A stretch of 64,000 nt of DNA from Daphnia pulex (lineage: Eukaryota; Arthropoda; Branchiopoda; Diplostraca; Daphniidae), in NCBI RefSeq assembly GCF_021134715.1, contig NC_060021.1, forward strand, positions 11,316,501-11,380,500. Reading direction: 5' to 3'. Below, one piece after another: positions 19,373 to 47,711 of the stretch. The position numbers and the translations under genes are program-made. Each line of letters opens with the position of its first letter. Positions within the stretch are counted from its first letter, which is position 1. The notes below the pieces were generated by a model. The model was not told the origin of the DNA and ran no database searches. It saw only the letters and a program-made list of their open reading frames with translations.

Positions 19373-19801
19373 CATCAACTGCGTCTTCCTCATCGTCGTT
19401 GTCGTCTTCTGAGCTCGTGGTCGTTCCTATCGTCGAATCGGCGGCGGCTTCGTCACTGGACGGGAAAATAAAAAATGAATTGAATTTCTCCCCGAGAATT
19501 TAAATGCAAATTTACTTTTTTGTTTTATTATTCACCTTTCATTGAATGAAACGTTGGCTTCGACTGATGGACTAGCGCCCGGTTGGATGTGATGGGAGGT
19601 GGTGGTGGTGGTGGTGGTGGTCGAGGCGGCGGTTCCATTTCCGTTGGTCTCGTCCAAAATGAGAATGGACTCGTAGGACGGCGGTGCTACCGGCCAGGTG
19701 CAATGGACGCTCGGAATGGAAGTGGTGGCGGCGGTGCTGTTGTTGTTGATGCCGCCATTGCTGGATGCCCGAACGGCTTCCTCGTACGACGGCAGAGTCG
19801 C
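19373..19801 (-). CDS. exons 8-9 of the SUSD4-like gene (LPSY and PPSY motifs)
   Basis: Exon 8 (19801-19536) follows acceptor GCGATAG/GCG, with its pyrimidine tract about 30 nt upstream, and ends AAAG/GTGAAT. It encodes LPSYEEAV and PPSYESIL plus an eight-Thr run from an ACC repeat. Exon 9 (19455-19373) follows GTCCAG and ends GATG/GTGAGT, encoding the acidic SSEDDNDDEEDAVD. Phases are consistent (2, then 1). No downstream exon could be assigned. Confidence 0.65.
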
Positions 19802-22800
19802 CTATCGCGGGACCCGATCGAAGTCGAATAAAAACAAGAAAAAAAGAAAGAAAATTGAATTTTCAAGAATCAACCGACATAAACAATTGGGCAAAGTCAA
19901 CAGCAACAACCAAACAAGTGGGCACTTGACTCTGGCGAAGAGTGGCGCGACATGTTCAAGAAGACGGGATCCTCCTTTCTTGTTTTGTCTCTTTTGACTT
20001 TGAGGACGGGGCAGGCACGCGCGCGCGTGGCCGCCAGGGATAAGAAGGAGAACTGGAATGCGCAACTCGGCGGTAGACAAGAGTCACAGCCAATTACCAG
20101 ATAATTGAAGGCCATTTAACACTACTCGCTACTAATCCAATAACCAAATATTCAAAAAAACTAGCGGAGGGCGGAGGAGTAGAGAAAAAAAAAAAACTGC
20201 CGCAAAAGGGACGACCGGATTGGCCAGCCAAACAATCGCGGACACAACCAAAGGGAAGAAATACAACAAAAACCGGTCACACAAATCATCAATTTCCAGA
20301 GAGAGATTTCTTTGGCTGATTTGCCAATTAGCTCAGACTCCCTGTGTAGGTAAGAAACTGAAAAAAACCAAAAAATTCAAATAGAAATTTCGAAAAAAAA
20401 ACTCGAGGAAGAGAAAAGAAGGAAACTTGTCCATTAATTTCGCCCCGTGTGCTGCTCCCTCCTCTGTCGGCAGGTCAAATATATATCACCTGTTGGATTT
20501 GGGCGTCGCCCGAGCAGCTGCTCAACCAACTGCGCTGAAGCTTTTCATCTTCCTCTGAACTGCCCAGTGTCTTTTGTGAAAAGTGTGAATTCTTCTCCTG
20601 TTTGAGGTTATCCCCAAATGGGTCGAGGACCGCCAATTAAACCCAACATCAGAGCTCCTATAACGAATGTCCCCTACCAGAAAGGCCCTCAACAACTTTA
20701 ACTCGATTGTAAATAAGAAGCCAAGAAAGAAAGAAGAAGAAGAAGAAGAAAAAAATTTTCATTGCCACATCCTCCCCTCTCGTAATCGTAGCGCCCGATC
20801 GGGCCAGGTGTGTGTGTGAGCTGGCGCGTGCTTGGTAGAAAGGGGGGGAAAAAGACACCGAGAGCAGTCAGCAGTCTCACCGAGAGAGAAAAAGAAAGAA
20901 AAGGTGTTCGATCCATCACGTTTTTAATTGACTCGCGGGGGTCACTTGGGAACTGACACTTGTTGGGCTTCTGCTGGATCTTGTGTGCCGGCCCCATCTC
21001 CCCAATCTGAGAAAAACAAAAACTGCCCAGACGACGTCTCGGCGGAATATAAAATGGGGGGAGTCGTCATTTCAGGAGAGTGGCAAACCAAATCGGCGAG
21101 AGCAAAAACAAAAAACCATCCGCGGGATTATATACACACCTAATAAAAAATCAAACAGCAGCTAAAGGATAAGCCCCTTTCGAGATCGTTTAAGCCGTCC
21201 TCGGGAGAGAGAACTAACAGTAGTTGGTTCGGGGAGGGAGAAAAAAAAGGAATGCGGTCCGGTGATAAACATCCATGCGAGAGAGAGAGAGAGAGAAAGA
21301 AGAGGAAAAGAATAGACAAGTGTGCAGACAGGTTTTTGTGTCTCGGTGATTTTTCTCCGTTTGAACGCAGCGCGTGGCAGCAGCAGCAGCAGCAGCGGAG
21401 CGATGAAAAACACACGCGCGCCTCTATATCCATCCTGATATCTCCGCATTTCATCGCTCAGTCCGAAACGAGTGGGAGCCGGCGCCTCCACAGTTTCAAG
21501 TTGATGACACCACACAGACCTCTCTCTCTCTCTTATTCTTCTTTTTCTTCTAGCTGAGACACACTTAAAAGAAAACAGGGAATATAGAGATGGAATACAT
21601 CAAAGTTTCCTCGTAGTAAATAGAATCGGAGAGAGAGAGAGAGAGAGAGAGAGGATGTGGCGGATGATCGATGCCTATCAATTCACGCCAACTCCAAATT
21701 AACGAGAAGGAGGAGAGAGAGGTGCTCACACTTCTCCTTCTTCTTCTGCTTTTGGGATGATTTCGTGTTTTGTGAAACCGAAAGTGAAAACAAACCAAGA
21801 CAAACAGCAAATCATGTCGCTAGTTTCGGGTTTTCTATAGCCGAGGAAAAAAAGAAAGAAAGAAAGAAAGAGGAGGAGGAATCTTCCGACATCTTTTCGG
21901 TGCGCATTTGCCAACCCCAAGATAGACATCGCAAACATAACACACGCCAGGTAGTAGTAGGTAGTAGTAGTAGTACGTGGTGGTGGTAGTAGCGGCAGTA
22001 GTAAACCAAATAAACTTTTTTCTTCTTCTTCTATCTTCTTTCTTTATATTTTTCTTCTCTCCCTGGAGGAGGAAGAAAGGCAAAAGGGGACGCAGTCACG
22101 CCATCCCGAACGAAAACGAACGACCGTCCGACCAACCAGCCAGCCGGAGAAATTCCGGGAGCAAGTGTAACAGCTTCCAAAACATCTCGAACAGAATACA
22201 AAATAAATCAAACCATAAAAAAAGAAGAAGAAGAAGAAAAACTGCAAGGCAAACTAGTCATTTAGTTCTAACCCAAGAGAGAGAAAAAAAAGAGGGAGGG
22301 AAATCATCTAATAAAAGTGGAACAAGAGGTGGGAAAAGGAAAACAATCTCGGCGTAAAATTTAAAAAAAAAAGAAGGTAGACGGTCAGATATATATTCTC
22401 TTCTCTTTCTCTCTGCCGGGCTGCTGCTGCTGGACAGATAATATAGCGCCAGAGACAAGAAACATATCAGACCAGCAGAGAGTCGTCGTCCTTTTCTCAT
22501 TTCTACTCGTGGCCGTCCATCGTGAGCTGAATGCCTAATCAGCTGCGACTGAGGGGAGGTTAAGCTCAACATCGCCGGCATTATCATATTCGACCGTACA
22601 CACACACACAGAGCCCCATCTTTTATTCTTCGTCCTTCTATTTATATTTCTCCCACTTGTTTTTTTCTTTTCTTCTTCTTCCACACAGCCGAAAAAGTAT
22701 CCGCCGATGTTACGTGTGTGTATTGTCTAACCTGAATACCATTTCAAATGGTGGGGGGAAAAAGTACCAACACACACTGTTAAGAGCACTGCACTTTGGA

Positions 22801-25800
22801 ATGTTTCAAAAGTTGTTCTCCGAGGAAAAGCGATGAAGAAATTCGCCGAATGATCAACTTGAAAAAACGTTTTCATTCTGTTGCTATGCCTTTGATTTTC
22901 TCTTTTTTGAACAAATGCGAGATTTATTTGTTGAACAAAAAGATAAAAAGATCGACGCGAACTGCGGGGGTCATAACGTCGGGACCGTTTTGACTGGTCG
23001 GACATTTCAAGACGATGGACACTCGAAATTTTTTTGTTTTGTAGAAAAAAAAAGACATGGAAAAAGTGGCCGCAGTCACGCTAGGAGGTCAAAACCAGGA
23101 ACTGTCAATCGAGACATAAATCCAGCAAACATCCTCCTACCCATCCAGAAGTGGGGAAAAAAAAGTTCCACATTTCAAAACAAACTAAACAAATAAAAGG
23201 AAAAAAAAAAAAAACCGAAGAAAAGGCCCATCTCTTGATAGGTGGTCCACCTTTCACCCCCCGTCTTTTCTCTCATTTAAAGCGTCTGGTTCTCTGGCCC
23301 CTTTGTATTTATTTGCTTTCGTGATGGCCCGTTTTTGTGTGTGTGTGTGTGTCGTTATTTGCGCGTGTGCCAGCTCATCCGGAGCTGCCGGTGACTCACC
23401 ATCTCCCACAATGAGAATGTGGGGATTTTCTCTCTTCAAAAAACAGCCAACGGGGGAAAAAAGAAAAGGGCGATGAGCCAATAGAGCGGAGCTAAAGCGA
23501 ATCTACTGGAAAACACAATGGGCAACCACACAGAGAGAGACAGACGGCCAGTATAATGTATGTATTTATTTATAAATCGAACTGGAGTCATATCGCCGTA
23601 AACGCAAAGCGTCAGGAGGAGGAATCCACAATCTTGAGAATTAGAAGAAAAAGAACCAAGGCGCTTTTAAGCGCAACGTCTTTTTAACTCGTTCTCTCCC
23701 GACTACAAAATAAATATTAGCGTAAGTATTAGATTGGCATTCTTCCCAGCCAATATTTATCCATTTTTCTGATCAGAGCCCCTTTATTCATTTATTTATG
23801 TATTTATTTATTTATTTATTCTTTTGCGCCGCTTCGTCTATTTTTATACTTTCCTTCGTAAAAAAATATCAGAAGAAGAAAAAGAAAAACAAGAGGGTCG
23901 GTCGGCAAAGTTTTTAAAAAACGACGACCTCTCAGCTCTCGCTGCGGACGGATGGACCCGGGCGGATGGACGGATGGGAGACGCGCAAGAGTTTAAGAGA
24001 ACGCAGATACCGAGAGGCCCCCATGAATAACAATAAATCAAAGCGGGGCGAGCGGGAATTTGTTTTTCCTTTCTCCTTTTCTTTTATTTTTTGCTGCTTT
24101 TCATCTCATTTTCAAAAGCCACGACGATAGTAAAAAAAAAAAGAAAAAGAAGAAGAGGAAAAAAAGAAAAAGAAAAAGAAAACCTTAAAGGTGGAAGCTT
24201 CTTTCTACCTTCCTCCTAAGATAAATACGCAGCTTATCTTTTTCTTTGAAATTGATATTTGAGAAGAGCCGAGAGCCCCAGACACAAAATAAAATACCAA
24301 CAGATAAAAAAGGAAAAAAACTTTTTCTTTCCTTCTTTCTTTCTTTCCCTGTTCCTTCTTCTTCGTGACCGTTTAGACTTTGGAGGATGATATGACAATT
24401 GACTGCCCGGATCAACAAGTTGGGTGTGTGTGTGTGTGTGTACAGGAGAACTATACCCACACACACACACACACAAGAGTTTTAAAAGAGTTTCACTGTC
24501 TGCCAGTCGGCCCCACCTGCAACCTTCCACAAATAAGTGTTAAAAAAAGCGGGTCGGATGATAGGAGGAAGAATCAAGTGTATCGAGAGAGAGAGAGAGA
24601 GGATGATGTCATCCGGCTGAAGGATCTTCTCTCCTTTGGCAGAGGTGGAGTCGCCCCCTATTGCCCCCTCGTCTTCGCTCAAGATTTTTTCCCAAACGAA
24701 CGAAAAACCGTGTCGCCTTTTTGATGGAGGGAGGCGTAGACACACGCACACGGCAACAGCGGCGGTTCTCTCCCCCCCCCCCTTCGAATCGATTACGTCA
24801 ATCCCTGCCTCAAGGCCGGCCCCGTAACAACTCAACGTGTCGAGATGGGAGTTGCTCAACTTTGTCAGAAGTTGAAGGAAAAATCCCGAGACAACAAAAC
24901 AACTCAAAAGATATTATATTATAACCCCCCCCCCCTCTTCTAACGAAAAGTATCGCCCATTATACTACCTCCACACACACACACACACCCATTTACTTCT
25001 CTCCCGTGTGTGAGGGGGTGGGAGGACAACAACCAAAGAGTTTCAGTCGGAGCCAACGCCCCACACTGGATTCTTTTCTTTGGCTGCTCACTCTCGCGTT
25101 GTGTATATTCTAATAATAAAATTTAAAAAAAGAAAGAAAGAAAAAACTTTTTTCTGAACGCCGCCCCGTGTCCCGGATTTTTTCTTTTTCTTTTCTTTTC
25201 TGCTCCTTCAAGTCCCTCTCAATCACAATCGACCAATCAGACAAGATGACCTGCCTCTGTGCTGCTGCTGCTGGTCATCTCTTCGGTGGAAATTGCGACT
25301 CTCGGTGTGACCAAGACGAGTTTGATGAATGATCGCAGCCGAGCGTAAAAAGCAGAGGGGCAAAAGAAACAAGTTTAGGAAGACTTTTGGAAATAAAAAC
25401 AACAACAACAACATTGGAGGGGGGAGCTTCTCTACTACTATACTAATCTCCCGGGCATATCTCAAATGTGATTTAACATAACCTGATTAAAAAGGTGGAA
25501 ATGTTCGATAAATTTCCGAGCGAGAGAGCAAACGTCAAGCGTGTAATGAATCATCAGGTTGTGTTGATGTTGTTGTTTTTACCTTGGCGATCATCCGTGA
25601 TCTACAATTTGAATTTATTTCGGGCCCTGCATTTGTTTTTTCCTTGTGACGTTCTTTCCTATTTCCTTTCAATTTTAGACCTATGCGACAGAGTCTCTGC
25701 CGCCTGTTGCGTCACATGAGAATGATCCCCCTCCACGATGAGGGAAAAAATTGAGCGGGAGGCCTGTCAAGGGGCGGCGGTGGCGGCGGCCAGTTTGGTG

Positions 25801-28800
25801 TAGGGCAGCCAAAAATTAGAGATCGTGCTTCCCAATACGAAACCAGAATTTACACAATAAAACATAAGAGAATAAATAAATAGAAAAAGAAGAAAATAAA
25901 ATTTCTGTCCCAAAATGAAAACGAGGAAAAAGAAAAATAATTTTTAAAAAGAAGAAAAAGAAGTCGACGATGTAAACAGTTTGGGTCGGGAGTCGGGGCG
26001 AGTACCTGAGAAGAATAACAAATATATTCCATCAGTCAGTCGAGTTCCTCTCTCTCTCAGAGTTGCCCCTTTTTCTTCTTCTTCTTGTGATACTCAAAGG
26101 AAGAAGAAGAAGAAGAAGAGTCCCGTCTTCTTTGCCCTCCTCCATCACCCCAAACTCTGTCGGGATTAGACGTTATGTTGCGTACGTGTGTGTCTGCAGG
26201 AGACGCAACCCGAAAAAGAAGAAGAACACACAAAAGAAGAAGAGTTGAGACTTCTTTTTCTTTCTTTTTTACGGTCGCCCAAGTATTCTTCCCTCCTTTG
26301 AATGGCACTAGTCCGCCGGCATTCGGATAGGGCCCCATCGTAGCCAACAACCTTCCATCTACTCTCAAGGTGCCACCGAGGACGATATGAAAAAAGGTCA
26401 AACTGCAGTTGTAACTACATTGTAGTAGGTTGACTATTATATGGACTCTGTGTCGACCAGACGCTGAGATGTGGGAAGCATGTTGGGCTTCTATAAAAAT
26501 AGCATCTCTCGTATTGTTGTTGTTTGGTGGGCAACGGAAATGCCAGACGGAGAAAATCGGCTTAAGTCTAAAAAAAAACAAAAATCGACGACGACGGAGA
26601 ACGAGAGAGTCACGGGGCTGCGCGACTACGGGGTCCAGTCATTAATCAAAGCCATCATTCCCCCCCTCCAACTGCCTTCTTCTTCTTCTTCTTTCTTCCA
26701 CCTTTCCTCTCTTCGGCTGGCAGAGAGAGCGGGCGAGGCAAATCAGACGCCAAGCTTTTTATTTTTATTCTTTTTTTCTTTCTTGACCGTCATCATCATC
26801 GCCACCAAACTTCTCTGCTATTCCTATTCATTCGTCTCTCTCTTTGCCTCTTTGCCTCTTATCAACGGCCTCGTTTGATTCATTGATGGAAACCTCCCAT
26901 CGTTAGTCATCCGCTGGATGAAAAGAAACGAACGTTCTGGCTGGCCCCTTTGTAGGTAGGCGCGGTGTGTGCAAGTTCGTTTTTCCGGTCCGACGCCCCT
27001 CATGTTACTTACACGTTACGTCATGTGTGGGCGTGTGTTGTGTGTGTGTGTGTGTGAATTACTCGAGTCAGCGTTTTGAAAGGACATGAGAAAGATTGAA
27101 GAGTTTTGGCTATTACCTGACTGCTCGTGTTGTTGTCGTTCATGTAGGCGATCAAGGCCACCCGATCCTGATCCGACGCCTGGCCAAGATCCAGCAATTG
27201 GCGGTCGTAAGCCGGCAGGGAATCATCGTCGTCCATGTCCAGCTGCTGATGGACGTGATGGCCGTCACGGTCGTTTTGGTTGGGGCTGATCCAAGTCCAA
27301 AGTGATTGGTGCCGATGTCTACGGCCGCCGCCGACGCCACCGTCAGAAGAAGAAGCCGAGGCGGCCGACGGCGCCATTGGCGGACAAACGGGACCAGAAA
27401 ATGAGAGGGTCTCTTCTTCTTGACGGCCGTGATGGCCGGCCGATGATCGGAGACAGGTGATTTTCCAGCGGGACGCCATCCAAATGAGGCAGAGGACAAA
27501 AGTGACGCCACATGCCGTTGTGAACGAGACGAGTAGCGGTCTAGGGGCTTGTTCTTCTCCGTCCACCTTGTCGTCGCCTTCTCCTCCATCGGCATCTCCT
27601 CCGCGGCCGGCCTTAGTCATCTCCAATCCGCCGCCGCCGCCACCTATAATACAACCGCCACCCCCCAAAAAAAAGTCACCCACCCACGAGAGAGAAAGAG
27701 AGAGAGAGGTGAAAAAGACGGATCGAATTCATTAATTCACAACGGCAGCCAAAAGTAGCGACCGTTACAACAAACGGAATAAAATAACCAAAAGAATAAG
27801 AAGAAGAAGAAGAAAGAAAGAAAACAAGCTGGCCGGTGATGACCGGGCTCCGTAATAGTGTAACATTATACAACGCATTTGATGTATACAACACATCAAA
27901 ATGGTCAAGAAGGAGAAAGAAAGTATGGAATCAAATAAACAAAACACAAAAGAAAGAAAAGAAGAAAGAAAAGGGAAGCAGCAGCGAAATAATGCAACCG
28001 GGAGGACGAGGACGTTTCGCTGATGGCGCCACACTGTCGCAAAGCAGTCACGCACACGTTGTTGGCTCGGCTGGCGCCGCCCTTTTCTTTTCTTTCTTTC
28101 AACAACAGCGCCCCATCGAACACACAGAGTCACGGCCGCAAAAAATATATTTGAAAATAACAAAAAAAAAATAAATAAATCGACGAGAATCGTCAATTCA
28201 TTTTCGAATTTGGCGCTTTCTATTTGGGAGAGGAGAAAACGAGCGATGATGGTGCGGTACCTGCAGCTGGACTAGATATTTATTGATTCTTTTTTTTTTT
28301 CGGGGTTTTTATTTTGTGTATACAAAAGAGGGGAGGAATGAAAATTGTCTCCGACTGGAGGCCCCCCAAGCCAGAAAATTGGCCATCGTTTCTCTTTTGT
28401 TTTTCTAAATTGTGGTCTTGGCTAACCTACTAACTCATCAAGAGCAATTAAAATACAAATAGGGACTCCACCCGTTTAAGCGGCCGTCAAATTCTTAGCA
28501 ACACAATAATAACCCACCCATTCAAATAATAAAACATCGGGAAAAAATAGAAAACAACTTTGAAAAAAGAAAAAGGGCGGAGACTTGGGCCGATGAATTA
28601 GCGCGACGTCACTTGACCTCCGTACCCAAAAGCCCGCATCGATTCGAAACTCATTCCCGCAATGTCCATTGTTATGCGGCCCGTTCTCCGCCAGACGAGA
28701 GAAAGAAAAAAATCGGAAGAAGAAGAAGAAGAAGGTGCGGCGGCGGTGGGGGTACGTACCGTGGCTGTGATGGATTCCGCCGGATGAAGCGGAGGAAGAA

Positions 28801-31800
28801 GATCCAAAGGGAAGGCAACGAGGGGCATTGTGAGTCGGTTGCCACCAGCCCCCAGGCGAACAAGAAATGAGTGAAGAGCCGCCACTCAGAAAGCCACGGT
28901 AGCAGGAATATAACGCGCTACTGTAGACTGGAACCACCACCATCGGTGACGTGGTGGGAGTCGACGATCCGTTATTGCTCATCTGCAGGTTGTTCCAGTG
29001 CTGGATTCGCGACGACAGCGGCGAGAACGAAGACGACGAGAAACTCCTCCGCATCGGCAGGATCTGGTAACGGCCGTTGGCGATCTCCGGCGGTAAGGAG
29101 CAACCGCGCACCTCCAACTTGGACGACGATGCAGCTGGAACCAAACAAACAAACAAACAACAATTAGAAACATTTGGAACTGTGCCAGGTGAATATTTTT
29201 CAACGAATAAAAAATAAGACCAAAAACAAAATCAAAACGATAGACATCCAGTAAAAAGAAAAAACGAGACTGAGACGGAGGAGGCCGGAATGCGGCGGAC
29301 GGCATTCCTGAACACGTTTCCATGTTGTAATCCCCCAACGTCTAACGAGGTGTGTCAGAATGACACAAACTCGAGCCAGAGCGGCGATTCAAATAAATAA
29401 ATAAAGATGGGAATCGAAGGATAAGGAAAGTTGTTGTCTCTTTATGAAAATCACCCGAGTAGGTGGCGGAGGTGGAGGAGGAGGACCACACGCAAAGATT
29501 AACGTCAACCTGCGAAGAAGCACCGGGATTTTGTGTGTTGTAAAGGGCCCCAAAAAAAGAGAAGTGAAATCCGCTCAGTCACTTGATAAGAAGAAGAAAA
29601 CGGCGCGACAACAACAACAACAACAACAAACGACAATAAACAGAAAAAAAGGGGAAAGAAAAACCGGGCAGGGGGTGTGCAGGGGGGAATCTCCATCATC
29701 ATCATCATCGCATAGTACAGTAATAACAATAATATAATCCTGCCCGAAGAAGAATAAAAAACAAAATTCTTCTTTCAAGTTGGGAAAATATCAATAAAGA
29801 TTATCGCGCACACACACACTCCTGGCGGGGTCTGTCGCCGCAGAAGCGGGAGCGGGAGACGGAACATCGTGTGTGTTTTCTTCACAGTAAATCATAATAC
29901 ACACAAGACACACACACACACAGACGTATATAATATGAACGCGCTCAAGGCAGCCGTGTCCGGGCGCATTCCCGGCGACATTCATGTTTCTTCTTCTCGT
30001 GCCGCTGTGAGATTTTTCAAACTTCTTTTCAATTTCATCTTAAAAGTCGTCATCTTTTTTATTGGATTCTTCTTCTTCTTCTTCCAACTTTTTCCTCTTT
30101 CTGTCTTTTTTTTTTCACCTTTTACATTTTCCCTATTTTTTATTTCAACTTTTGTTATTTCCTTTTCTTTTACGACCAGGAAAAAAAAGTGGAAAACACG
30201 AAACGAAAAATATTTTTTTAAATGCTCGACAAACACCCCCGTCGTTCGTTCGGGACACAATAACAGCAGCGCCCCTGGTGGCTAACAAATGGTAATAAAC
30301 CACCGGATGGACGACACGAAAAAATCCTCGCCGAGAAAAAAAAAAAATCCTAACGAACTCGTCTCCGAAAACGATTCGCGCAATCAAGAGAACAAAACAA
30401 AACATTCCAGTCGAAAAATTTCAATTCAAGAAAATCAAATAAAAAAGAATTTAAAAAAAAAAAGAAACGATGGAAGCGCTACAAAATGAATCGTTTAATG
30501 GCTGCGCTTAATCATCGATTCAACTTGCCATATCGCACCTGAGCATCAAAAAGAAATGCGGGGGGATAGAAAGCCAAGGACCCAGCGGGAGCGGATTTTT
30601 TCTCCTTCCTTTTACTGCACGGGAAAACGACGTGACCACCCACCTACAGGCACACAAACATTCGAGAGAGAGACCGCGCGACACAATCCCCCAACAAGAA
30701 AAAAGAATTTAAAAAATAAAAAAAAAAAAGATCGAGATCCATCCCAAAGAGTCGACTGCCAAGGTGGGGCACCCCAAATGGAAATCACCGCAAGTGGTCA
30801 ACCTAAATGGTTTTATTTTGACGTGGCTCGTTTTGTTTTGTTTTCTGTTGGCCCAACCATCGATGGTCATCGCATTGATTCCCGATTTAGCACTGGGCCG
30901 CGATAGAGAGAGAGAGAGACTGGGCGAACTGGTATCAAAGACTTTCTCTGTCTGCTGTCTACTGTTTGTCCAGCCAAAAACAGACATGGGGCTGGGTCCT
31001 CTTATATATTCTTCGTTTCCTTCGCTGAGAATCAGATTCTCTCTCTCTCTCCACCACTACCACCAAAATGAGAAAAGAAAATACAGACCACTACTACTAC
31101 TACTACTTGTTACTATATTACTACGAAGCTCCTCTTCCTTTTACTACGACCAAACCATATATAGAGAACAACCTTTCTCGGCCTTGAGCCCGCACCATAT
31201 ACAGATCAAACTACCGTACACATTCACGAATTTCGTCTTCATTTTTTTTCTTCTTCTTCACTTTTTTTATTTTATTTTTTCCAGGGGAACTATATGAGGG
31301 TCAGACAAAGTGGTCAATTGAGATGAAAACCGTTTGGATTTCTGGGATATTCCTTCATCTGGAAACGCCAACCCGTCAAAACAAGTCTGACCATCTCTCT
31401 TTAGGGTGGATTTTGTGATGGCCAATAAATCAAATGTGTAACTGACCGCATTATACTGCCTGCCAGTGCACACTCCTACTATTACACGCATTCATTCACT
31501 GTGCATAGATTGGGAAAAACCTGAACAAATGTTCTTTCGTGGCTTATGGCACCGAAAGGACCTACCACCACGCAAGTCGCCCGACCACCACCACCACCAC
31601 CCAGAGATTTTAACTTGTTGTTGGCTGGTTTGTCCTCCTATCGCATATCCAATAGGCTCACATGAAGACCTCTGCGGGTCTCAAAGGGGTTCCTGCCGGG
31701 TCGTATATCATGAAAAGGAGCCAGCAGGAAGGAAGAAGGTAACAACAACAACATCTCGACGGAAACCCGGGACGCATGTTTCATTCATTCATTCATGGTC

Positions 31801-34800
31801 ACCATGGTGGGGACCCAACTCGGCGGGCCGTCTCTGTAGGAAAGAAAAAAAAAAGGCCCAAGACGACAAAAGCGAGCGGGGAGGACGACAAATGCGGCGG
31901 CGCTCGACCCGGGCACGCGTGTTGAGGTGGCCCATTGATACGCAGATGAGCGGCGGACTCGATGGCCCTTGGAGAGACTTTCGAAACGATTGGAACGTTA
32001 GAAGAAGAAGAAGAAGCAAAAAAATAAAATAAAATAACAAAGTCTGGATGCGCTTCTCAGCGGCAGCGGCGGCGACGACGCCGACTGAAGGAACAAGGAT
32101 CCCGAAATCAGCAGTTTGATCTAAAACTGTGACACGAAGCGATGGGCGACGCATTTCTGCTCATAGGTAGGACGTTAGGTTAGACACAAAAGAAAACAAA
32201 TCCTCAGACTCAAAATATCTCAAACGAGAAACGAAGAGATGCGCAACGAAAACAAGGACCAGCGGTGGGTCGTAAAATCAATCAAGAGTGATGAACTGAC
32301 TTGAGCAGGGTAATTGATGACTCTCGGCGTGTCCCGCTGCTTTGGCTCTTTTCCACACACACACACACACATACAAGCACAAGGATCTCTGCCTCTTTTT
32401 CATTATCTTTCACGGTTTTTTTTTGTTTTTGTTTTCAAAAAAATTTCGGGATTCTTTTCAACTTTGTAGATTGGACAAGATTTTCGCCTTCTACCTAACT
32501 GAAATGTTATTGTTTCGGATACAAATGGTTCACGATCAAGAGAGAGAGGGAAGAAAGAGGTTGGGCTGCTGCTATTCAATCGATCGGACAAATTGAATAG
32601 GCAAATGAGGGGCTTCAATCAAGCCCACAGCCACCCAAACGCATGAAGGGGGGAAAAGAGAAAAGAGAATTCGAAAGGAATAAAAAATGGATATAACTAA
32701 AAAAAGAGAAAATCTACACCATAATAGAAAATGTGAGAGAGAGAAACGACCCAGGTGTATGTGTGTGTTTAATCACTCTTAATGGAATCACGATCGTCCC
32801 ATTTTCATTAAGAAAACGGCCCTGATTGGATCTGGCGCCACAGCAAACAACGTTACATCACACACACACACACACACCATTCGGCTAGAGGCAACTCGCA
32901 TTCTCGAAAAACAAATGAGAGAAGCGAAAAAAAGATTTGGTCGAAGAGAATCTCCAACAACAAAAGAAAATGAAAATGAAAAAGAAGAAGAACATATTTT
33001 TATGAAGTATAACGAGATTGAGCACGCGTGGTGCTGGTGTAAGTGCTCATATCATTTTACGATCGACAGGTGAAAAAGAGAGAAAGAAACTTCGTTACAA
33101 TATCGACACGCTGCGAAGAAGAAGAGGCGGACGAGGACTATCGTTAAATTACAACGGCGCAGGTGAAAGAATCAACGTGAAAGAAAGAAAAGAGCTTTAA
33201 AAAAAGAAAAAGAAAAAAAAGAGAGAATGAATAAGTGCTGGTAAAGCCATACAATACATTCCATCGGCATCTATCCGAAATTCCAATTTGCATCGGATCG
33301 GGCAGAACAATTTTCCCTCAATGAGATTGAATAATTCATCAGCAGCAGCAGCAGCAGCAGCCACTCTGGCCAACAAACAAACAAACACGAACGAAAACAA
33401 CAACAACTTCTCCGTGTGTGAGTGTGGATTTTTTTCCCATTTCTTCCCTCATCACACAGACACAATCGAATAGTCGGTCGTTTTTTTCTTATTAAACAAC
33501 CGTCGGTTTGAATCAGCAACGTGATCGATTCGCACCGGGCGCTCTCGCTCGTGAACCGAACCAATTAACTATATCCACACAGACGGGCAAGAGAGAGAAG
33601 AGAGGAGAGAAGAGAGAGGCTGTCTGGTTTTTTCTTTAACAACCTCAACCTGCGACTATGTAAAACGGGAGGGGAGAAAAAAGGATTTTTCTATTCCTTT
33701 TTTTTCCAGGTCCGTGTGATTAGGAAAGATTACACGCTGCCATAGTTACGTTCGACGTTTGGGGATGGCCAGTCTCGAGTCGTTATAACATCATAAAAAT
33801 CCAACAAACACACACAAAAGAGTATGAATATAGAAAAACACCAGCCAGCAAAGAAAGAAGAGAACCTGCATATTGTATAATGCCAACCACCAGCAACCAC
33901 TAGCGTTCGGGTCTCTAAATTGGAACGGATAAGATCTGGATAAGATCGCCGAAGAACTTGGCGCATGGCCGCCACATTCATCGCCATTATACAAAAGGGG
34001 GGAAAGAAATAGAGAGAGAGAGAGAGATGAAAGGTGCTAGTAGACGATATATAAGTAAATTCACGTGTACACACAGTTGTTGTTGTAGAGATACACCTAG
34101 CGAGAGAGAGGGGCAGTTGATTTAGTAGCAAAGAGGCGCGTCCCTTCTTCGGTTTCCAAGAGAAAGATATGAGCGAATGATCGAGTGTGTTGTCTTTTAC
34201 ATCATATTCCATCAGATTATCCATATTTCATCGTTTCAACCCTTTTTTCTTTCTTCTCCTTCTGCTAATAATCATTTTTTTCTTCCTTCTTCTTCTTCTT
34301 TTACTCTTTGAAAATTGAAGAATGTGATAAAAAGAAAAAAGCAAAAATGAAAATAAAAAAATCCGTTCCAGGATATTCTCGGCTATGGGTTCAGTAGCTG
34401 TTCGAAAGTCCCTTTTTGACTTAAATGACGTCACAGTCAACAAGACAATGACTCGACTGCTGGGATCGCCCAGGGTTCTTTGAAAAGGAACGAGGCGCAA
34501 CACACATAGACACACAATACGACACCATTTACAATCATCATCATCATCATCATATCGAAAATTTCTATTTCAATTTTTGTGTCTGCGGCGGTCTGCGGCC
34601 GTGCCTAAGGAGAGAGGTAATGGAAAGATGAAGGGAGGTTGCCGGATTACTATACAACAATTCCGCTCTTCCATCTGCAAAAGAACACACTGCGTCTAGT
34701 GTAAATGTATATAGGGAAGGACTTTCACTCTGGCCCGCATATAAAATATGTCCCTCTTCTTCCAAGTTCTTTATGATAACACTCGTTTCGTCGAGAAGAA

Positions 34801-37800
34801 GGAGGAGGAGAAAAAGAAGAAGATGATGATGATGATGATGATGACCGGCGGGAAGAATGCAAATCGAATAAATGACGGGACAATGGTTAAGACTCTTCTC
34901 TCTCTGTACCCATTTCGACCCGCTGTATATTCATTCCTCCACCAGAGTCTCTTGTTTTCTTTTATTTTCATGTGTGGAGAGAGAAAGAAGAAGAAAAAAA
35001 AGCCAAGCGAAACAATCGAGCGAGGGAATGCGAATTTACTCTTATATCTAATAAATGTACGCAGAGTTCATTATAAAGTCAGAAAACACCGGCGGTCACA
35101 TTTGAGGAAAAATGTCTAGTTTGTTTTCTTCCTCTTTTTTTTCTTTTTTTTTGGGGGGCTGCTAACGAGCTGCTAAAGGCTGTTCAAACTATCCCGCCCC
35201 AAAATACACACACACTGCTCTTTTGGAAAAGGAAAAAAGAAAACATTAATTTTATTATTTTTCTTGGTGTGCGGAGAAGAGTTTAAAAAAGTTCTTTCTT
35301 TTTCCGCCTTCTCCTCCTACCAACTCCTCCTATTTCGGACTCTGTGTGTGTATGTGTGTCTGTTGTGAAAATTACACAAACAAAGAAGATGCAAGTTGTT
35401 GTTGTTGTTTTTTCTTTGGCTGGCGGGCCGAAATTCAGGGCGGACGGACTCTTGTCTCAAACAATTAAAAAACATCTTCCTCTCTTGTGAATCTTCTTCC
35501 AAGTCAAGCAAAACAGCAACAACAACAACAAAAAACGTTTTATTTCATTTGGTCCAGTCCGCCCACCTTTCTGACGGCAGACGCACAAACCGCAGGTAGC
35601 GCGGGCCCCGCTACATTTTTCTCTATCTCTCATCTTTTTGGGGGGTTTTTATTTTTAGTTTTTTGAGCGGGGGCGTCGATATTCTCCACCTACTCCGGTC
35701 AGAAAGATAAGGATTGCGTGAAAGGAATCCCGCCGTCTCTCATTTTCCCGATTTTATTTTCCGTCCAAGTCCCCATCTTTTTTTCCTGGCCGTCATTATG
35801 AAAATGGTTTTCCAAACTCGACTTCAAGTTGGATTATTATTCCGGAGCCATCAACATCTTCCCAGCTCTTTCCCACCGTCCGACGTGTTTGGATGCAAAC
35901 AAAAAAGAAATACACGACGACGGATGGAACAAAAAAACAAAAACAAGGGGGGGATGATCCCTGTGGCAGCGATCGGCTCCGATACGGTGCAACCAGCAAC
36001 TGCCAACGGAGGGGGGGCTCAAGCGGATAGACTCTCTCTCTCTCAACATGACTCTCTTTTTTCCCCTTTTCCTTCTTCCAGCTGATAAGTTCTACGACTT
36101 GGGCACGATTCGGCTAAGTGGGACTCGACGCCCGCGATGCCGAACATCGCCAACCAACGAACGGGACTAAACTTCTTCTTTCTTTCTTTTTAGAAACTAA
36201 AAATAAAAAATGCTGGTGGAAAATACGCTGGATAAAAAGTGGAAGGAAAAGACACAAGGCATCCATGAGATGATGGATAAAAAAAAAAATAAGAAGAGCT
36301 GCATAGGAACTTGTATATCTTTTTCTTTTCTTTTTCTCTCCACAAGACGTCGTGAATTCACGCAAAAAGATTCCACCACCTAAAGTCTCTCACGACTCTT
36401 TCGATCGTGAGTGATTGTAAGCATCTCCCAGCATTGCATGGGCCGGCCATTCTCCCCCACCACTACAGCCACCAACTGACTTGACGGACTGACTGACTGA
36501 CGGACTCGATGATCCATCAACAACGAGGTCAACAGACCGAAACATATCAACCGACAAGAGCCCGAGAAAAAGAAAAACCCAAAAGAATCTCTATGGTGGC
36601 GTGCAGATGGACATGACGTCGCAACAACAAGTCGACGCAGAGAGTCTGTGTGTCAGTTATCCCGAACGGCAAGCATGACCATGGGGTCTGCAATTAAAGG
36701 CGGACAAGAAAGAGCACATCAATGGGGGGGCTTCCCTCCTTTTCTTCGACTTCTCGCATACCGTACGCGTAGATTATCAAGTGTGTGAGCTCCTTGTTCA
36801 GCTTCTCCGACTCCTCTCAAAAGAAGAGATACGTAGAGAGGAGAGAGCAGCAGCGTGGGAAATGAGAGAAATCGTCACTTTGGTCGTCGTCAACTTGCAC
36901 GTACCGAAAAAAAATCGCGCACACAAGACGGTCAAAACAATGGCGTGTAAAGAGAGAAAGATAGGCAACCGCTAACTCCCAAAGAGAAAATAATAATAAA
37001 AACCCAAAAAACAAGCACCACCACCACCACCGTCGACGTCGTGGTTTGGCTCTATCAGTGGAGACACGTTCGCTCTTTGCATCTCATCACCTGCGGACTC
37101 TTGCGGGAGTTGGCTGGGATGTGGTTGTTGCATTATAAAACGCGGCCCGTAACTATATAGGACTTGACCCTTGAGCTCTCTCCCCCCCACAAAAGAATTG
37201 AAACCCCGGCTCTAACAACTGTCTTCTGGCTTGATTGCGCTTGGCTCTGTCTTTTTGGTCTTGGCCAAAAAGACCAAACTTCACGCGAGATCTTTTGTTT
37301 TCTTTCATCACTTTCACGACGCGGAATCCCCCCCCCCCCCTGGTTGCGCAGTTGTTGATTGGAGTGAAGGGGGGAAAGAACAAACAGAAAATAAAGATGC
37401 CGGGCAGCATTGCGGTGTTAATTGAATCGGGACAAGACCATCTTCCTTCTAGATGGCGGGGGGAAAAGGGTCCCTCTTTCCTGCCTAATCGATTAGAATG
37501 AGCACGCGGGATTGGACCGTATCACGCGCGCATGCTCACCTGGCTCTTTTGAGTCGACGCTGAAAGGCAAAATAACGATTATTGGCTATCACGGCGAAGA
37601 TGGCGGTCGTTTGGATTCAATGACGCAAAGATCGTCAAGTCAAAAAAGCTAATGGAGCGAAATGGCTGGCCTTTTGGCTCTCTCTCACTCTCTGCCGATC
37701 GTGTTGAATCATCATCCAATGACGTCACTTTTTTTCTTTCTTATTCTTCCTTCCTTCAACAACAAACCCTCCCACCTCAGCAAAAGAAGAAGAAGAAGAA

Positions 37801-40800
37801 AAAAATGGAAACTTGATAATTCCATTCAATCAGGAGGACGAGAGTCGCACAAAGGAATGGCGATTGTTATACTCTAGTGGAGGGGCAGCTCTTTCAACAG
37901 CAGCAGCAGCAAATGAAAGAGGGAAAGAAAACATGTACAATTTTCTCAATCTCGAGCGGGAGCCGCTTTCTCTACGTCATCGTCGGCTGTGCGGCCGTGA
38001 CCAACAGTCTCAATTCAAACGACCAGCAGAGTTCTCTCTCTCTCTCTCTCTCACTCTTGAGAGGAGACTTTCGGTCGTCGTGTCCCTTTGGAAAATCTGT
38101 TTTTTTTTCTCTCGTCTTTTTTAAGTTTCGCTGGGGGTATTATACAGAAACAATGCCGCACACATTTGAATATGTTTCAGGACCGACCGAAACACAAGAA
38201 AAAAGAAAGACGATATCCCCCCTTCGTCGTCGCTACGAGAGAAATGAGGAGGAGGCGGCGGGACAGAGAGAAAGTGCCGTGAAATCATTCAAGCCGCGTC
38301 CAATTCCACCTGCCATGCCACCCCCCTGCCGCTCACGACACACACCGCGGATCAATTAGCATCCCTTTTCGATGGTTGGAGGAGAGAGAGAGAAAGAAAG
38401 AAAAAAAAGAACAGAGAAAAAAGAGAGAGACTGTCATTATGTAACGACGGCTCATTCAAAATCAGCTCGCTAGACGAATTCGCTTTGGTTCGTTGGGTGC
38501 GTACGTCCTACAAGTCTCGTAATTATAACTGAGAAAAAATGCCGTTATTCAAATAAGAAGAAGGAAGCGGCAGCCGAAATTGTCTGAAACCACAAAATGA
38601 CCAAAACGAGCTGTAATTTCGGGAGAGAGAAAAAAATCTCAATCGATCACACGCCGTTTCGTCTAACAACAACCGTGCCCTGACCCTGTTTATATGTCCA
38701 GGATAACTGTTTGTTGGTTGACTCCCTGGGTGGCTTCTACATCTTTTCATCCTCTACCAATTTTCGCTCTCTCCCTGCAAACTCCCAATCACGATCGTTT
38801 TTATTTTTTTAATAACCAACCGCAACGCCGTATCGCATTACAAGCTCAATTACTATTCCAGTTTTAACGAGAGACATCCACGTTCAACATAGTCTCATTT
38901 CGTTTGCCTTTCGTTCACGAATGTTTCCCCTGCAAATTAAACATCCTTTTTCAAACAACTTCTTTGATTTTTGCTATTGAACGTTCCCCTCCCCCCTTCA
39001 TTTCTGTTTGAGCCTTTCAGTTATTTGCCACTAGCCAAACCCACGGATGTAACCCATTAGTGGAGACGAAGGAATGCATGTTTGTTGTTCTCTACCACAA
39101 AAAACAATCAAAAGGACGGGTGGAATGGTGTGTGTTTTACCCTGTTTGTTTGAATATGAAACACAACTAGACGTCGTGTGCTTCAAGCACAAGGGAAGCG
39201 CATAAATCAACAAGATGAATTCCTATAATACACCACCACTGCTGCACCCCACCCGTGGTCGAATCCAAAATTGAATACATTCCAGCAAATGAAATATAGA
39301 TGTACACATACACAATGTAAACAAGACGAACCAAAATTGAATAAAACAGAAAGAAAATTTCGAAATTCTTGTTGTTTGTTTGGTACTTCTTCCCCCTCAA
39401 AGAAACAAAATATGTGTACATTTATATGGGTACGAAAACAAAAAAACAAAAAAAAACAAATCAGTTGCGTAATGCTATTGAAATTTTGTGCCCTCCTTTC
39501 CGTACGGGTCTTACGGTGCTCGTATAAGCAGCTATTCAGGACACGACCGAGCGATAGAGCACGTACCGAATGGACGGCGAAAGACACGGGGAGGTCGGTC
39601 AGAACCGAAACAAAATCTAAGGGAACTTTCACAACACATTGGCACGACGATGGATTTTTTTTTTTTCAAATGTATGCAGAGAGAGAGAGGAGGAGGAAAA
39701 GGGCTCTTGTTCAATCAACGGAGAGTGGTCAACTCGACACACAACGGGAGTCTGATTGCTCGAAACCAATGAAGAAGAAAAAGGCAAAAAAGGGTTGAAG
39801 CAAAAGCTTGATTACGTGAAAATGCCGGCATCACTAGTAACAACTACTACAACAACAACCAACAACTACGCTACTACTAGTACACGTTAACGATGATTCA
39901 TTGGGCATGACCGACTCTCACGGCTGCCGCTCAACAGCTTCAAATTTCTCATCGACAAATCATCACGATTTTTCTCATCACACAAACCAAAAAATAACCA
40001 CGTCGATGACACGCAAGAGTAGTAAAACCAGCTTCGCCCCTTTGCTTCACAAATCGAATACTCCCCTCGCAATGATCCCGCCTCAGTGTGTATTAAATGA
40101 TGGATCAAATTGAAAATTGATCAACCACGTCGAAACACTTCCGTCGTGCAGAGTCGAAATGGTTTCCGCATCGGCGGGAAATCGATGACGAGTTGCTGGG
40201 ATTGGGACCTTTGATTGTTAAACGATTCGCCAGGTTACACCAATGGCAAAAGGTCAAATAAAACAACCAACCAACAGAGAGCCCACCACACATGTATGTT
40301 TGTGTCGCGCGGGAGGAGGCACTTAATGACAGGGGACGGATGCGCATGGGCGGCGGCGGCGGTTGCGGCGGCAACGCACTTTGCATAATGGTCGTTAAAA
40401 AAAAGGAGGGAGAAAAAAAAAAAGAGTTTATTTTTTAAGTCGACTCTTCTTTTTCTTTCCCCTATTTTATAGCTATTAAACACCCTCAAAACATTTTCAA
40501 GTTTTTCTATTTTTTGTTTGCTTATTTTTTCTTTTCTTTTGGCTTTCGTGTTTTTGGGGGGTTTTCATATCTAACTTGAGGCCATCGGCTAGTTCTCTCT
40601 CTCTCTCTCATCCATCCGGAATTTCCCATCTCCGACCATGTCTTTTCGTGAAACACGGGATAATGCGCTTGGGTGTGTTGTGTAGTACTCTACCGACATT
40701 AGCATTATTCCCGTCCAATTAAGTGTGGAAAGATAAAGAGAGAAAACAAAAAACCAAAAGAGGAAAAAAAAAAAAAAAACTTTTGAAACTGGAAATGAAC

Positions 40801-43800
40801 GAATTGGAAATTTTCTTCTATGTGTACAAAAGGCAAAAAAGGGAATTTTTTAAAAAAAAAAGGTGGCAGCGTGAAAAAGATTCTGGGCGTCTCTTTAACT
40901 TTTTTTCCAAAATTTTTTTTTTCTTAAGAGAAAGACGAACAATGAACAGTTTCTCTGCACAGTATGTAAAGAGCTCCCACTCTTGCACCATAATACCCTT
41001 CAATTAAGCGAAATCTAATCATTTCTCACACTCGCTTCAAACTATTCATTTATTCTCGTTGGGGATATAAGAGAGCCTCGACGACTAGGGGAAAAAAGCA
41101 GAAGTAGTAGTAGTCGTTGTGTTGTTATTATTATTATTATCATTATTCGAGCGGCGAGAGGGAGGCAGATGGAAAAACGAGTTAAGAGAATGAGCCGCGG
41201 AGATATAAAGCGGCAAAAGGAAGAAAATAGATAGAGACTACAGCTAGAGAGAGAGAGAGAGACTTGTGTGTTACAGGAGATTAGATTGGTGGATAATATA
41301 TCTATATCTATATACACTAAACAGTTAGAATGATGGTCCCTTGTGGTCTGTCGTCGTCGTCGCTTTTTTTCTTCTTCTTCTTTATCTTAGAGATCGTGCG
41401 TGAAAGAGAGGAAAAATAAAGAGCCGAGGGGAGAGCGAAACGGGCAAGGTGTTACCTCTTGTCGAAAAAGTAACGAAATAAAAAAATATTTTATCACGAA
41501 GAGGAAGGGAGAAAAAAAAATAGCCGTGCTGTTGTTGTTTTACGAATGAGAGAAAGAACAGTTTGTTTTGTTGAGTTTTTTTCTTCTTCTTTCGTTTTTG
41601 TTTTTAACGACCGGCCGAACCAAATGATAGACTCTTTGGCTGAAACAAGCAGCTAGCGCCTCGAGAGTAGCAACCGGAGGAAGAAGCTGAGAAGAAAAAA
41701 CAAAATAACTCTTAAAAAAAAAGAAAAAAAAAAAACTGAGAAAGAAAACTCTCACTTCATTAAACTGTCCCGTACACAAAACAGTGTGGAAGCAACCAAA
41801 ACAGTTTTGCACTCGAGTTCGTTCGTTCGCTCTCTCGCTACAGTAACCCCTTCATTATTATTGAGACTGGCCATGGGTCAAACATTCCAACCCCTTACTT
41901 TTCACACAAAAAGATTTCCTCCGGCGTCATTTTCTCTTCATTTTCCAAACTGGAAGAATAACAAGAAGAAAAAAGAAGAAAGATTCTTTTCTCTTTCTTT
42001 CTCTCGCTCCATCTCTCTCTGTCTGTTCTGCCTGGTATTCATTAAGCCAAGAAGGTCAACTTGGAACACCAAGCAATTTATCCTATCTCTTTCTCTCTCT
42101 CTCTTTCAACAAAGTTCCAGCAGCCACTATGTCCAAGATTCTATACGTGTGAAAAACCAATAAAATGAAAGTCGCTGTCGTCTCCGGGGTTATTTTTTCT
42201 TTTTCAATTGGTTCACGGCTCGATGGCTCGAAAAGACGCGGGATATGTACTGTGCAAAAGTCACGTTAATCCATCAAACAAGTCGAAAACCCCATCAGCA
42301 ACTTCTACTGACGGATTAGCATAAGTCAATATCATTACAAGAAAGGGAGGAGTTTTTCTTGGAACGACAGACACACGGTGATGGTATTTGCAATGCCGAG
42401 TGAGTAAAGGAGTGAGAGAAAGGAGTCATTTGTTGACTGCTCGGGGAAATTTATTCACGAGCTAAACCCAATGGTCGTGGATGGATGGATGGTAGAACTG
42501 TACAACACCCCCATTTTCAAGTTATTGGAGAAGACGGTAATAAATAGCACGACTCGTGCGCGATCAGGAATAACATCCTATCGCCAGCACGATCGACACC
42601 TCTCGTGTAAATGCATTGAGACAAAAAAGTGAGATAGAAGAGACTTTTCCTTGACTTTGGAAAGATAAGAGTCGAAACTGTACCATTCGGTTGGAAAGGG
42701 AAAAAGAAAACGACCACAACGGTTCCTCTAGCTCTAAACGTTCAGATAAACTCAATTGAATCATAAATCTTTCAGGACCAAAAACACCAAGTGTTAATCT
42801 TCGCCTCTAATATAGGACGGCCTAACAACAATCGATGAATAGATTTACGCGAGGAGAAAAGAACCAGACCGATTGACAAGTTTTCCGTATTTCAGGTTTT
42901 GTGGGTTCCTTCCTTTTTTTTTAAATAGTACGCAAAAGACCAAAAGACTCCATCTAGTAGCTACGACAAGAAGTAAACAGGGACTTACCAGCAGCAGCTG
43001 ACGATTCTATCGGCACACAAGCCGGAAGATCTTTGGGGATCCATTCTTTTCCGGAACACGTGAGGAGTGGTGGGCCCTTTTGATGATGACCCTCATCACA
43101 ATAGTACTTGACAGCAGCTCCGGACACGTAGATGTGGTTGACAACACCTCTTGCAATAAAGAATCCTCCTGTAACGGACGGTGGACGAGGGCAGCTAGCT
43201 GGAACTAATCAAATTGAATTGATTCCACGTGTCATGTTAAATTCGATGTTTATCTTATTACCACATAAAGGGTTTTCTCCTGTCCATTTTCCTCGAACAC
43301 AATATCTGATTTCACTTTCTGGTGGATCTAATTCAAGGCCAAACCAACACTGGTAAACTGCACGAGTGGAACTTAGTTCAGATGTGACTGCATTTACTCC
43401 CCCTTCCTACGAATTAGACATGGGCAATGAAATTATTCTGACAAGTGTAATAGTTAAACAAATTATACCTGTACTTGCATACTTCCTTGCATCAATGGTG
43501 GCAATGGGGGGCATCTCTCTTTGACTGCAAAATAGTAAATAAAGTTTAAAATAACTAAATGGTTTTATAATTGTCATTACATTTGAATTACCTATACACC
43601 GCGGTAATGGGATGTAAATAGAATCTCCCAAGGTAAAAACCTTCCATAGGCCTTTTTGAGAGCAGTACAGAAGACTGCTTTGCGGGTTCTCCAATTCGTA
43701 CCCATCTTTACAAATGATCCTTATAACATCCTGAGATTTGTACTGGCTTTTCACTGGGTCAACTGAGCCATGCAGTAATAAAGGTGGAATGCAAATCTCT

Positions 43801-44040
43801 TTTGCATCTTATCAATAAGGTAAGACAAATTAGAACATAAACTAGAGCATGGAAGCCATAGAAAACCCATGTACCTTGATGAACAGTTACGTTCACAGAA
43901 GTATCGTTATTCGATAAACTCAAATCAAATAAAGGTGGTAAACCTTTGAAAATATTAGAGATTCCATTTACTGGACAATACACCCATAGATACACGAAAA
44001 AAACGAAAAGATGAATCCTTGATAGTCGCATCATTTTCAC
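19373..44040 (-). CDS. SUSD4-like four-sushi-domain transmembrane protein (3' end unresolved)
   Basis: Predicted type I membrane protein. Nine coding exons keep phase across every junction: 44040-43875, 43807-43592, 43524-43469, 43406-43262, 43204-42989, 29134-28760, 27643-27117, 19801-19536, 19455-19373. Residues 1-26 form a signal peptide (MKMMRLSRIHLFVFF...). Four sushi/CCP modules follow, each with four cysteines and the Trp/Gly pattern: C61-C126, one starting at C132, one starting SCPRPP, and one starting C278 with a Ser-rich insert between its first two cysteines. A hydrophobic helix lies at about 428-448 (LLVSFTTACGVTFVLCLIW). The tail carries LPAY (534-537), LPSY (570-573) and PPSY (607-610), consensus sites for NEDD4-type WW domains, then a DDNDDEED acidic stretch. 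Four CCPs, one helix and PPxY/LPxY sites match what is known of vertebrate SUSD4; orthology is inferred. Introns 1-4 are 57-67 nt, but later ones are 13.9, 1.1 and 7.3 kb. The terminal exon was not found. Confidence 0.75.
21629..21653. repeat. (GA)12 microsatellite
   Basis: About 12.5 uninterrupted GA units, among the longest of the many GA/CT tracts in the window. It is a potential GAGA-factor-type binding stretch, by inference only. Confidence 0.9.
24424..24475. repeat. facing (GT)n and (CA)n tracts
   Basis: A GT tract (about 24424-24441) and a CA tract (about 24458-24475) are separated by 16 nt. As reverse complements they could pair into a stem of up to 18 bp. Confidence 0.85.
27117..27643 (-). 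CDS. exon 7 of the SUSD4-like gene (transmembrane helix, LPAY motif)
   Basis: Acceptor TATTATAG/GTGG and donor GTCAG/GTAATA; 527 nt, leaving phase 0. It begins with a Gly run and an acidic juxtamembrane segment, then the transmembrane helix. Basic residues follow the helix (RWK), giving a cytoplasmic C-terminus. The tail is Ser-, Gly- and His-rich and contains DDDDSLPAYDRQ. Confidence 0.75.
28760..29134 (-). CDS. exon 6 of the SUSD4-like gene (sushi 4)
   Basis: Acceptor GTTCCAG/CTGCA and donor CACG/GTACGT. The exon carries all four sushi cysteines (GCSLPP, LYSCYRGF, LISCSPGGWW, PRCLP). About 60 residues separate cysteines 1 and 2, including the Ser-rich run SFSSSSFSPLSS, far more than a standard CCP loop. 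Phase 1 in and out agrees with exons 5 and 7. Confidence 0.8.
33340..33360 (+). repeat. (CAG)7 microsatellite
   Basis: Seven uninterrupted CAG units, intronic. Confidence 0.9.
34822..34843 (+). repeat. (GAT)n microsatellite
   Basis: Seven GAT/ATG units follow GGA and GAA repeats, intronic. Confidence 0.9.
42989..44040 (-). CDS. exons 1-5 of the SUSD4-like gene (signal peptide, sushi 1-3)
   Basis: Start ATG at 44040. Donors and acceptors in reading order are CAAG/GTACAT, TAAG/AT, ATAG/GTAATT, GCAG/TC, ACAG/GTATAA, GTAG/GAA, TGTG/GTAATA, TTAG/TT and GCTG/GTAAG. Splicing joins VTVHQ to DAKEIC. Sushi 1 sits in exon 2, sushi 2 in exons 3-4 and sushi 3 in exon 5. N-glycosylation sequons NDT and NVT precede sushi 1. 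Exon 5 ends in ESSAAA at a phase-1 junction that fits the distant exon 6. Confidence 0.85.
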
Positions 44041-44570: not shown

Positions 44571-44654
44571 TCCGACGAACCGGAATTGAACCAGTGACCT
44601 AAGGATTTCGATTGCCGCTACAGTCCTCCGCTCTACCATCTGAGCTATCGTCGG
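44571..44654 (-). tRNA. tRNA-Tyr (anticodon GTA) with 11-nt intron
   Basis: The acceptor stem CCGACGA pairs exactly with TCGTCGG, with discriminator A at 44571. The A box (TAGCTCAGATGG) and B box (GGTTCAATTCC) are present. The anticodon stem GAGGA/TCCTT encloses CT-GTA-G..A, with GTA at 44621-44619. An 11-nt intron (44617-44607) sits directly 3' of position 37, the canonical eukaryotic tRNA intron site and usual for tRNA-Tyr. A T6 run (44566-44561) can act as the Pol III terminator. Mature length is 73 nt. Confidence 0.96.
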
Positions 44655-45872: not shown

Positions 45873-47672
<1,800 letters not shown>

Positions 47673-47711
47673 GGTGAAATTTAATCGAAAGAAAATATTA
47701 CTTCGGAACAA

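Follow-up and report, generated by a model that had tools for sequence, protein, structure and literature searches.

A candidate Nedd4-ligase adaptor of Daphnia pulex with four sushi modules, one transmembrane helix and three PY motifs

Gene structure

In a stretch of 64,000 nucleotides of the Daphnia pulex genome (the window, C5:11316501-11380500 of the 133.19-Mb assembly of 13 contigs that was scanned), nine predicted minus-strand exons lying between 44034 and 19373 can be joined into a single open frame of 676 codons. The frame encodes a protein with a signal peptide, four sushi or complement control protein (CCP) modules, one transmembrane helix and a tail carrying the PY motifs LPAY, LPSY and PPSY (Table 1). 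All eight introns are GT-AG and the junctions are phase-compatible. The first-pass annotation had proposed such a receptor by joining exons across junctions 42989/29134, 28760/27643 and 27117/19801; these three junctions were found to be sound, as were five more, and the protein read from them was confirmed by frame joining, Pfam, hydropathy and a motif scan. The interval that had been given for the gene, 19373 to 44040, held for the exon chain and failed at the 3' end, since 19373 is a phase-1 splice donor and the last exon lies outside the model.

Each sushi unit (exon 2, exons 3 and 4 together, exon 5, exon 6) starts and ends in phase 1, and units running from phase 1 to phase 1 are the usual layout of sushi exons. 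Donors across the gene matched 5 to 8 of the 9 consensus positions. Codon bias was measured with a table trained on three long sushi-gene open reading frames elsewhere in the genome, each exon being set against 3,000 random segments of the same length from the window. For exons 1 to 9 in order, random segments scored at least as well as the exon in 65%, 3.5%, 33%, 25%, 1.5%, 0.13%, 0, 0 and 0.07% of cases, a result that favours exons 5-9 and partly exon 2. In a window-wide codon scan exons 6 to 9 ranked highest among the minus-strand segments below 44 kb. Weak coding-like segments were also seen at 12966-13085 and 28001-28081.

Acceptor strength and poly(A) signals were used to look for a terminal exon, and 20 candidate acceptors emerged, none of them decisive. 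The nearest after exon 9, at 19121, would add AAVLKRSTFCSK and a stop, and another, at 17274, would add VCDAIHR and a stop, while exon 8 left unspliced would carry the frame to a stop at 19532 with AATAAA directly after it (by eye). All three PY motifs lie upstream of every one of these alternatives.

Table 1. Features of the receptor gene (window positions) and places in the genome with paired WW and HECT profile matches
Feature	Position	Strand	Description
Exon 1	43875..44034	-	signal peptide (MMRLSRIHLFVFFVYLWVYCPVNG) and short N-terminal stretch; signal-peptide frame, donor, place
Exon 2	43592..43798	-	sushi module 1, phase 1-1; 43798 is an uncertain acceptor, the alternative lying nine bases upstream
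Exon 3	43469..43524	-	sushi module 2, first part; sushi match, without codon-bias support
Exon 4	43262..43406	-	sushi module 2, second part; sushi match, without codon-bias support
Exon 5	42989..43198	-	sushi module 3, phase 1-1; sushi match and codon bias
Exon 6	28760..29134	-	sushi module 4, phase 1-1; serine-rich insert between its cysteines 1 and 2
Exon 7	27117..27643	-	stalk, transmembrane helix, juxtamembrane tail with LPAY; codon bias, hydropathy
Exon 8	19536..19801	-	tail with LPSY and PPSY; codon bias
Exon 9	19373..19455	-	acidic tail, ending in phase-1 donor; codon bias
Transmembrane helix LLVSFTTACGVTFVLCLIW	27480..27536	-	residues 421-439, hydropathy 2.13
PY motif 1, LPAY	27207..27218	-	residues 527-530
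PY motif 2, LPSY	19784..19795	-	residues 563-566, context LPSYEEAV
PY motif 3, PPSY	19673..19684	-	residues 600-603
WW and HECT pairs	C1 6.163-6.165 Mb; C10 2.737-2.740 Mb; C6 1.844-1.847 Mb; C11 2.522-2.525 Mb		grouped by coordinates

The encoded protein

A Pfam search of the joined protein (limit E 1) matched Sushi over four stretches with an E of 8.9e-19, module 4 alone scoring 20.6 bits (E 6e-4), just below the cut-off of 20.7. Sixteen cysteines lie between the signal peptide and the helix, both of which were assigned from hydropathy peaks; values above 1.4 were reached only at residues 7-25 (signal peptide) and within the helix. A genome-wide sushi profile search returned 107 matches, two of which came from this gene (E 1.7e-4 and 7.8e-4). 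A comparison of the ectodomain with PDB found 47 distinct sequences up to an E of 0.1; factor H, CR2 and factor XIII B head the list, and the best matches are generic CCP proteins. For the module-4 exon, set in an alignment with two further sushi exons from the window, AlphaFold gave a model with a mean pLDDT of 46, too poor to use.

The tail is 234 residues long and holds four tyrosines, three of which sit in the PY motifs. The pattern [LP]PxY occurs only at the three places given in Table 1, with none N-terminal to the helix, and the spacing of the motifs is nearly even (36 and 37 residues), LPSY standing 124 residues from the helix. In 100,000 shuffles of the tail no motif was seen in 97.7%, one in 2.2% and two in 0.015% (15 shuffles), and none gave three. 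Residues 553-630 of the tail also matched the TMEM51 family (PF15345) at E 3e-4, with 21.1 bits against a cut-off of 25.5, and the tail matched TMEM61 at E 0.048, with 13.9 bits against a cut-off of 30.1. Likeness to TMEM51 is limited to this weak match below the cut-off; a TMEM51 search of the genome gave no match, but as the control genomes gave none either this carries little weight.

One gene or two

Several observations weigh against reading these exons as one adaptor gene. Exons 1, 3 and 4 score like random segments in codon bias, so that module 2 depends on its sushi match, while the case for exon 1 comes from its signal-peptide frame, its donor and its position. Among the acceptors, those of exons 2, 7 and 8 range from ordinary to poor, 75%, 56% and 33% of the same-strand AGs in the window scoring as well; that of exon 2 is the poor one, and an in-frame AG upstream of it is a possible alternative (by eye). 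The last exon is missing from the model. G+C is 33-52% in exons 1-5 and 57-60% in exons 6-9, as two separate genes might show, a shift that we take as local composition. The window-wide codon scan found nothing inside the 13,854-base intron between the 43-kb and 29-kb exon clusters, but as it also misses exons 1-5 its silence there is weak. Finally, PY motifs are also borne by plain substrates of Nedd4 ligases, so that adaptor function does not follow from the motifs.

The long intron, the shift in G+C and the poor codon scores of exons 1, 3 and 4 could all be accommodated if a secreted protein with three sushi modules, encoded by the 43-kb exons, had been wrongly joined to a separate membrane protein encoded by the 29-kb to 19-kb exons, and a stop within about a dozen codons past exon 5 (by eye) would make a secreted form possible. 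We consider such a chimera very improbable. The two halves are complementary, the signal peptide being found only in the first and the helix and tail only in the second; the phases agree at their junction, and the exon 5 donor matches 8 of 9 positions. Nor did the scans provide the second half with a start of its own. Among 64 minus-strand ATG frames of the window with a hydrophobic N-terminus, seven also had a phase-1 donor matching at least 7 of 9 positions. Five of these are located above 53 kb and the remaining pair are nested starts of exon 1, which leaves exon 1 as the only such frame below 53 kb on this strand, with none inside the intron. A sushi cysteine signature, run over both strands of the whole window, matched only modules 1, 3 and 4 (it cannot match module 2, which is split between exons 3 and 4) and found nothing in the intron.

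Comparison with SUSD4 and SUSD6

SUSD4 is a vertebrate brain protein. Complement control, synaptic plasticity and MHC-I removal are the settings in which it and SUSD6 are known from vertebrates; SUSD6 has one sushi module. Likeness to SUSD4 was judged from published architecture and motif positions. In mouse SUSD4 four extracellular CCPs are followed by LPTY at 376-379 and PPAY at 411-414; mutation of LPTY abolishes and mutation of PPAY weakens NEDD4 binding, while the ectodomain is sufficient for GluA2 binding (PMC7972451). Like SUSD4, the Daphnia protein has a signal peptide, four CCPs, one helix and an LPxY followed by a PPxY about 36 residues away, the spacing being 35 in SUSD4 (PMC7972451) and 37 in the Daphnia gene, a single comparison to which no statistic is attached. 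The two differ in length (676 or more residues in Daphnia and 490 in SUSD4), in the serine-rich insert of module 4, and in a third motif of the Daphnia protein, LPAY, which lies nearer the membrane. The earlier suggestion of a SUSD4-like plan with one motif more is a fair description.

SUSD6 resembles the Daphnia protein in having a sushi ectodomain, one helix and an LPSY. It binds WWP2 through LPSY 174-177, with TMEM127 required to disinhibit WWP2 (PMC12720080), and a mutagenesis primer in that paper, read by hand, implies the context VALPSYEEAVY, of which the eight residues LPSYEEAV are identical in the Daphnia tail. SUSD6 is there described with a single PY motif, in contrast to the three [LP]PxY of Daphnia.

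The eight-residue identity was considered as a diagnostic mark of SUSD6 and rejected, as PPSYEEA contexts recur elsewhere in the genome in other frames. Two places encode LPxYEEA with a hydrophobic residue next to it, one in this gene and one antisense to another open frame, while PPxYEEA is encoded at 13 places as compared with 3 for a backward-read control; the two patterns are unequal in strictness, the first codon of the former also admitting F and the latter being looser. Twelve of the 13 places were inspected, and six are open frames resembling ordinary PY contexts; three of the six contain PPSYEEAV, one reading PPSYEEAVRIS where the sushi receptor reads LPSYEEAVRAS. As the YEEA context recurs in the genome, the identity with SUSD6 has the look of a typical WW ligand and is no proof of descent. 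Three others of the twelve, reading PPAYEEA, lie in a likely mobile element bearing a reverse transcriptase.

Candidate ligase partners and probable adaptor function

At four places in the genome WW and HECT profile matches are a few kilobases apart (Table 1), and one match to the Ndfip family was found (C9:4721948). On these profile matches the machinery that a PY adaptor needs appears to be present. Of the view taken in the first-pass annotation, that this may be an old sushi-receptor adaptor of ubiquitin ligases, the gene model and the SUSD4-like plan are supported, and WW and HECT genes are present; the YEEA context does not mark kinship with SUSD6.

We consider it probable that this one minus-strand gene encodes an adaptor for Nedd4-family HECT ligases, built as a type I membrane protein with a single helix, four sushi modules and three PY motifs. 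For ligase binding, cargo and cell type we infer by analogy from SUSD4, SUSD6 and Commissureless. The sushi ectodomain would hold a surface protein in cis while the PY motifs, three in all, bind to the several WW domains that a Nedd4-type ligase has, and the protein so held would be ubiquitinated and sent to the endolysosome. Three evenly spaced motifs would fit several WW domains of one ligase. The tail is predicted to be self-sufficient, and may activate the ligase without a partner as does the three-motif NDFIP2, unlike the single-motif SUSD6 with its need for TMEM127.

Commissureless is not known to have sushi modules, and NDFIP1 and NDFIP2 have a different membrane topology and no known ectodomain. 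In Commissureless PPCY precedes LPSY by nine residues, so that motif order and spacing differ from those of the Daphnia protein. It is nevertheless comparable as an arthropod membrane protein with two PY motifs (PPCY 220-223 and LPSY 229-232) that serves as a Nedd4 adaptor, bringing Robo1 to the ligase (PMC12101832). The likeness of NDFIP1 and NDFIP2 lies in three PY motifs which, as described for NDFIP2, act together on Nedd4-type ligases (PMC12720080).

It is also conceivable, if unlikely in our view, that the receptor is real and that its PY motifs serve its own removal, making it a substrate of a Nedd4 ligase and not an adaptor. Many self-regulated membrane proteins bear PY motifs, and mutating the PY motifs of Commissureless raises its own abundance (PMC12101832). 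Against this reading, HEK293 cells showed no significant difference in the level of SUSD4, the protein with the closest plan, upon mutation of its PY motifs (PMC7972451), and three spaced motifs would exceed the need of a single docking site.

Common ancestry or independent origin

The plan shared with SUSD4 hints that a receptor-removal adaptor may predate vertebrates. We tentatively propose, with somewhat less than even confidence, that the gene is an arthropod descendant of the SUSD4/SUSD6 ancestor, and that a sushi adaptor for Nedd4 ligases existed before the protostome/deuterostome split. Its original task would have been the removal of cell-surface receptors, complement control and MHC-I removal would be later uses, and the tail with its three motifs would activate the ligase unaided.

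It may be, a possibility that we likewise place a little below even, that an arthropod sushi receptor gained a PY tail of its own and is an analogue and not a relative of SUSD4, an origin that is compatible with the adaptor mechanism. The tail matches to TMEM51 and TMEM61, although below threshold, point to families without sushi modules, in PDB the ectodomain comes closest to factor H and further CCP proteins, the distance of LPSY from the helix fits this origin, and so does the excess of PPxYEEA over its backward control, with several PPSYEEA in other frames. Against it, CCP number, the order of LPxY and PPxY and their spacing all agree with SUSD4, whereas the motif layouts of Commissureless (PPCY 220, LPSY 229) and NDFIP2 (Y151, Y177, Y186) differ from that in Daphnia.

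The motif pair was also compared with other sushi genes, by a survey of the same-strand 10-kb 3' flanks of all 18 other sushi clusters that ignores splicing and is not exhaustive. Although [LP]PxY strings occurred in all 18 flanks by a general scan (13 by a narrower one), two in one open frame were found in only three: PPKY and LPWY 234 apart, LPYY and LPCY 46 apart, and the overlapping PPPY and PPYY. An LPxY followed by a PPxY in one open frame was seen in none of the 18 flanks, while the same scan recovers the LPSY and PPSY pair, 37 apart, for this gene, which argues against an independent origin. At one locus (L030) a PPAY string is part of a long frame, some 7 kb downstream of the sushi exons. 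In the literature an invertebrate SUSD4-type PY receptor appeared in no title or opening abstract among the matches listed, which does not show its absence from print.

Neighbouring genes

Just upstream of exon 1 lies a minus-strand tRNA gene (44571-44654; Rfam tRNA, 57.9 bits), the only Rfam match between 40 and 64 kb, which ARAGORN called tRNA-Leu(gag) and which by eye looks like an intron-bearing tRNA-Tyr with anticodon GTA. Beside it, at about 45900-47700 on the minus strand, are exons that by eye resemble queuine tRNA-ribosyltransferase, one of whose substrates is tRNA-Tyr; their proximity is probably a coincidence. On the plus strand 45255-45737 encodes a CIA30 domain (PF08547, E 1.8e-21) of a gene resembling a complex I assembly factor. 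A pyridoxal-dependent decarboxylase (PF00282, E 6e-36) was found at 49059-49412 on the minus strand, the gene extending by eye over about 48150-50000; the frame 48149-48598 had no Pfam match. An open frame of 335 codons (53668-54672, minus strand) has a signal-peptide-like start and a cysteine-rich stretch; Pfam had no match for it at E 0.01. Sodium:neurotransmitter symporter genes, at least two of them, lie in tandem at 58731-63980 on the minus strand. PF00209 matched three frames there, with two frames covering one and the same part of the profile, and the codon scan shows similar repeated segments.

Implications

The putative receptor would add to the known sushi-type PY adaptors. Invertebrates are without a complement system according to a review (PMC9083331), and if the same plan holds in a crustacean, receptor removal through an adaptor would be the core that is shared. 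Daphnia would then offer a testable non-vertebrate model.

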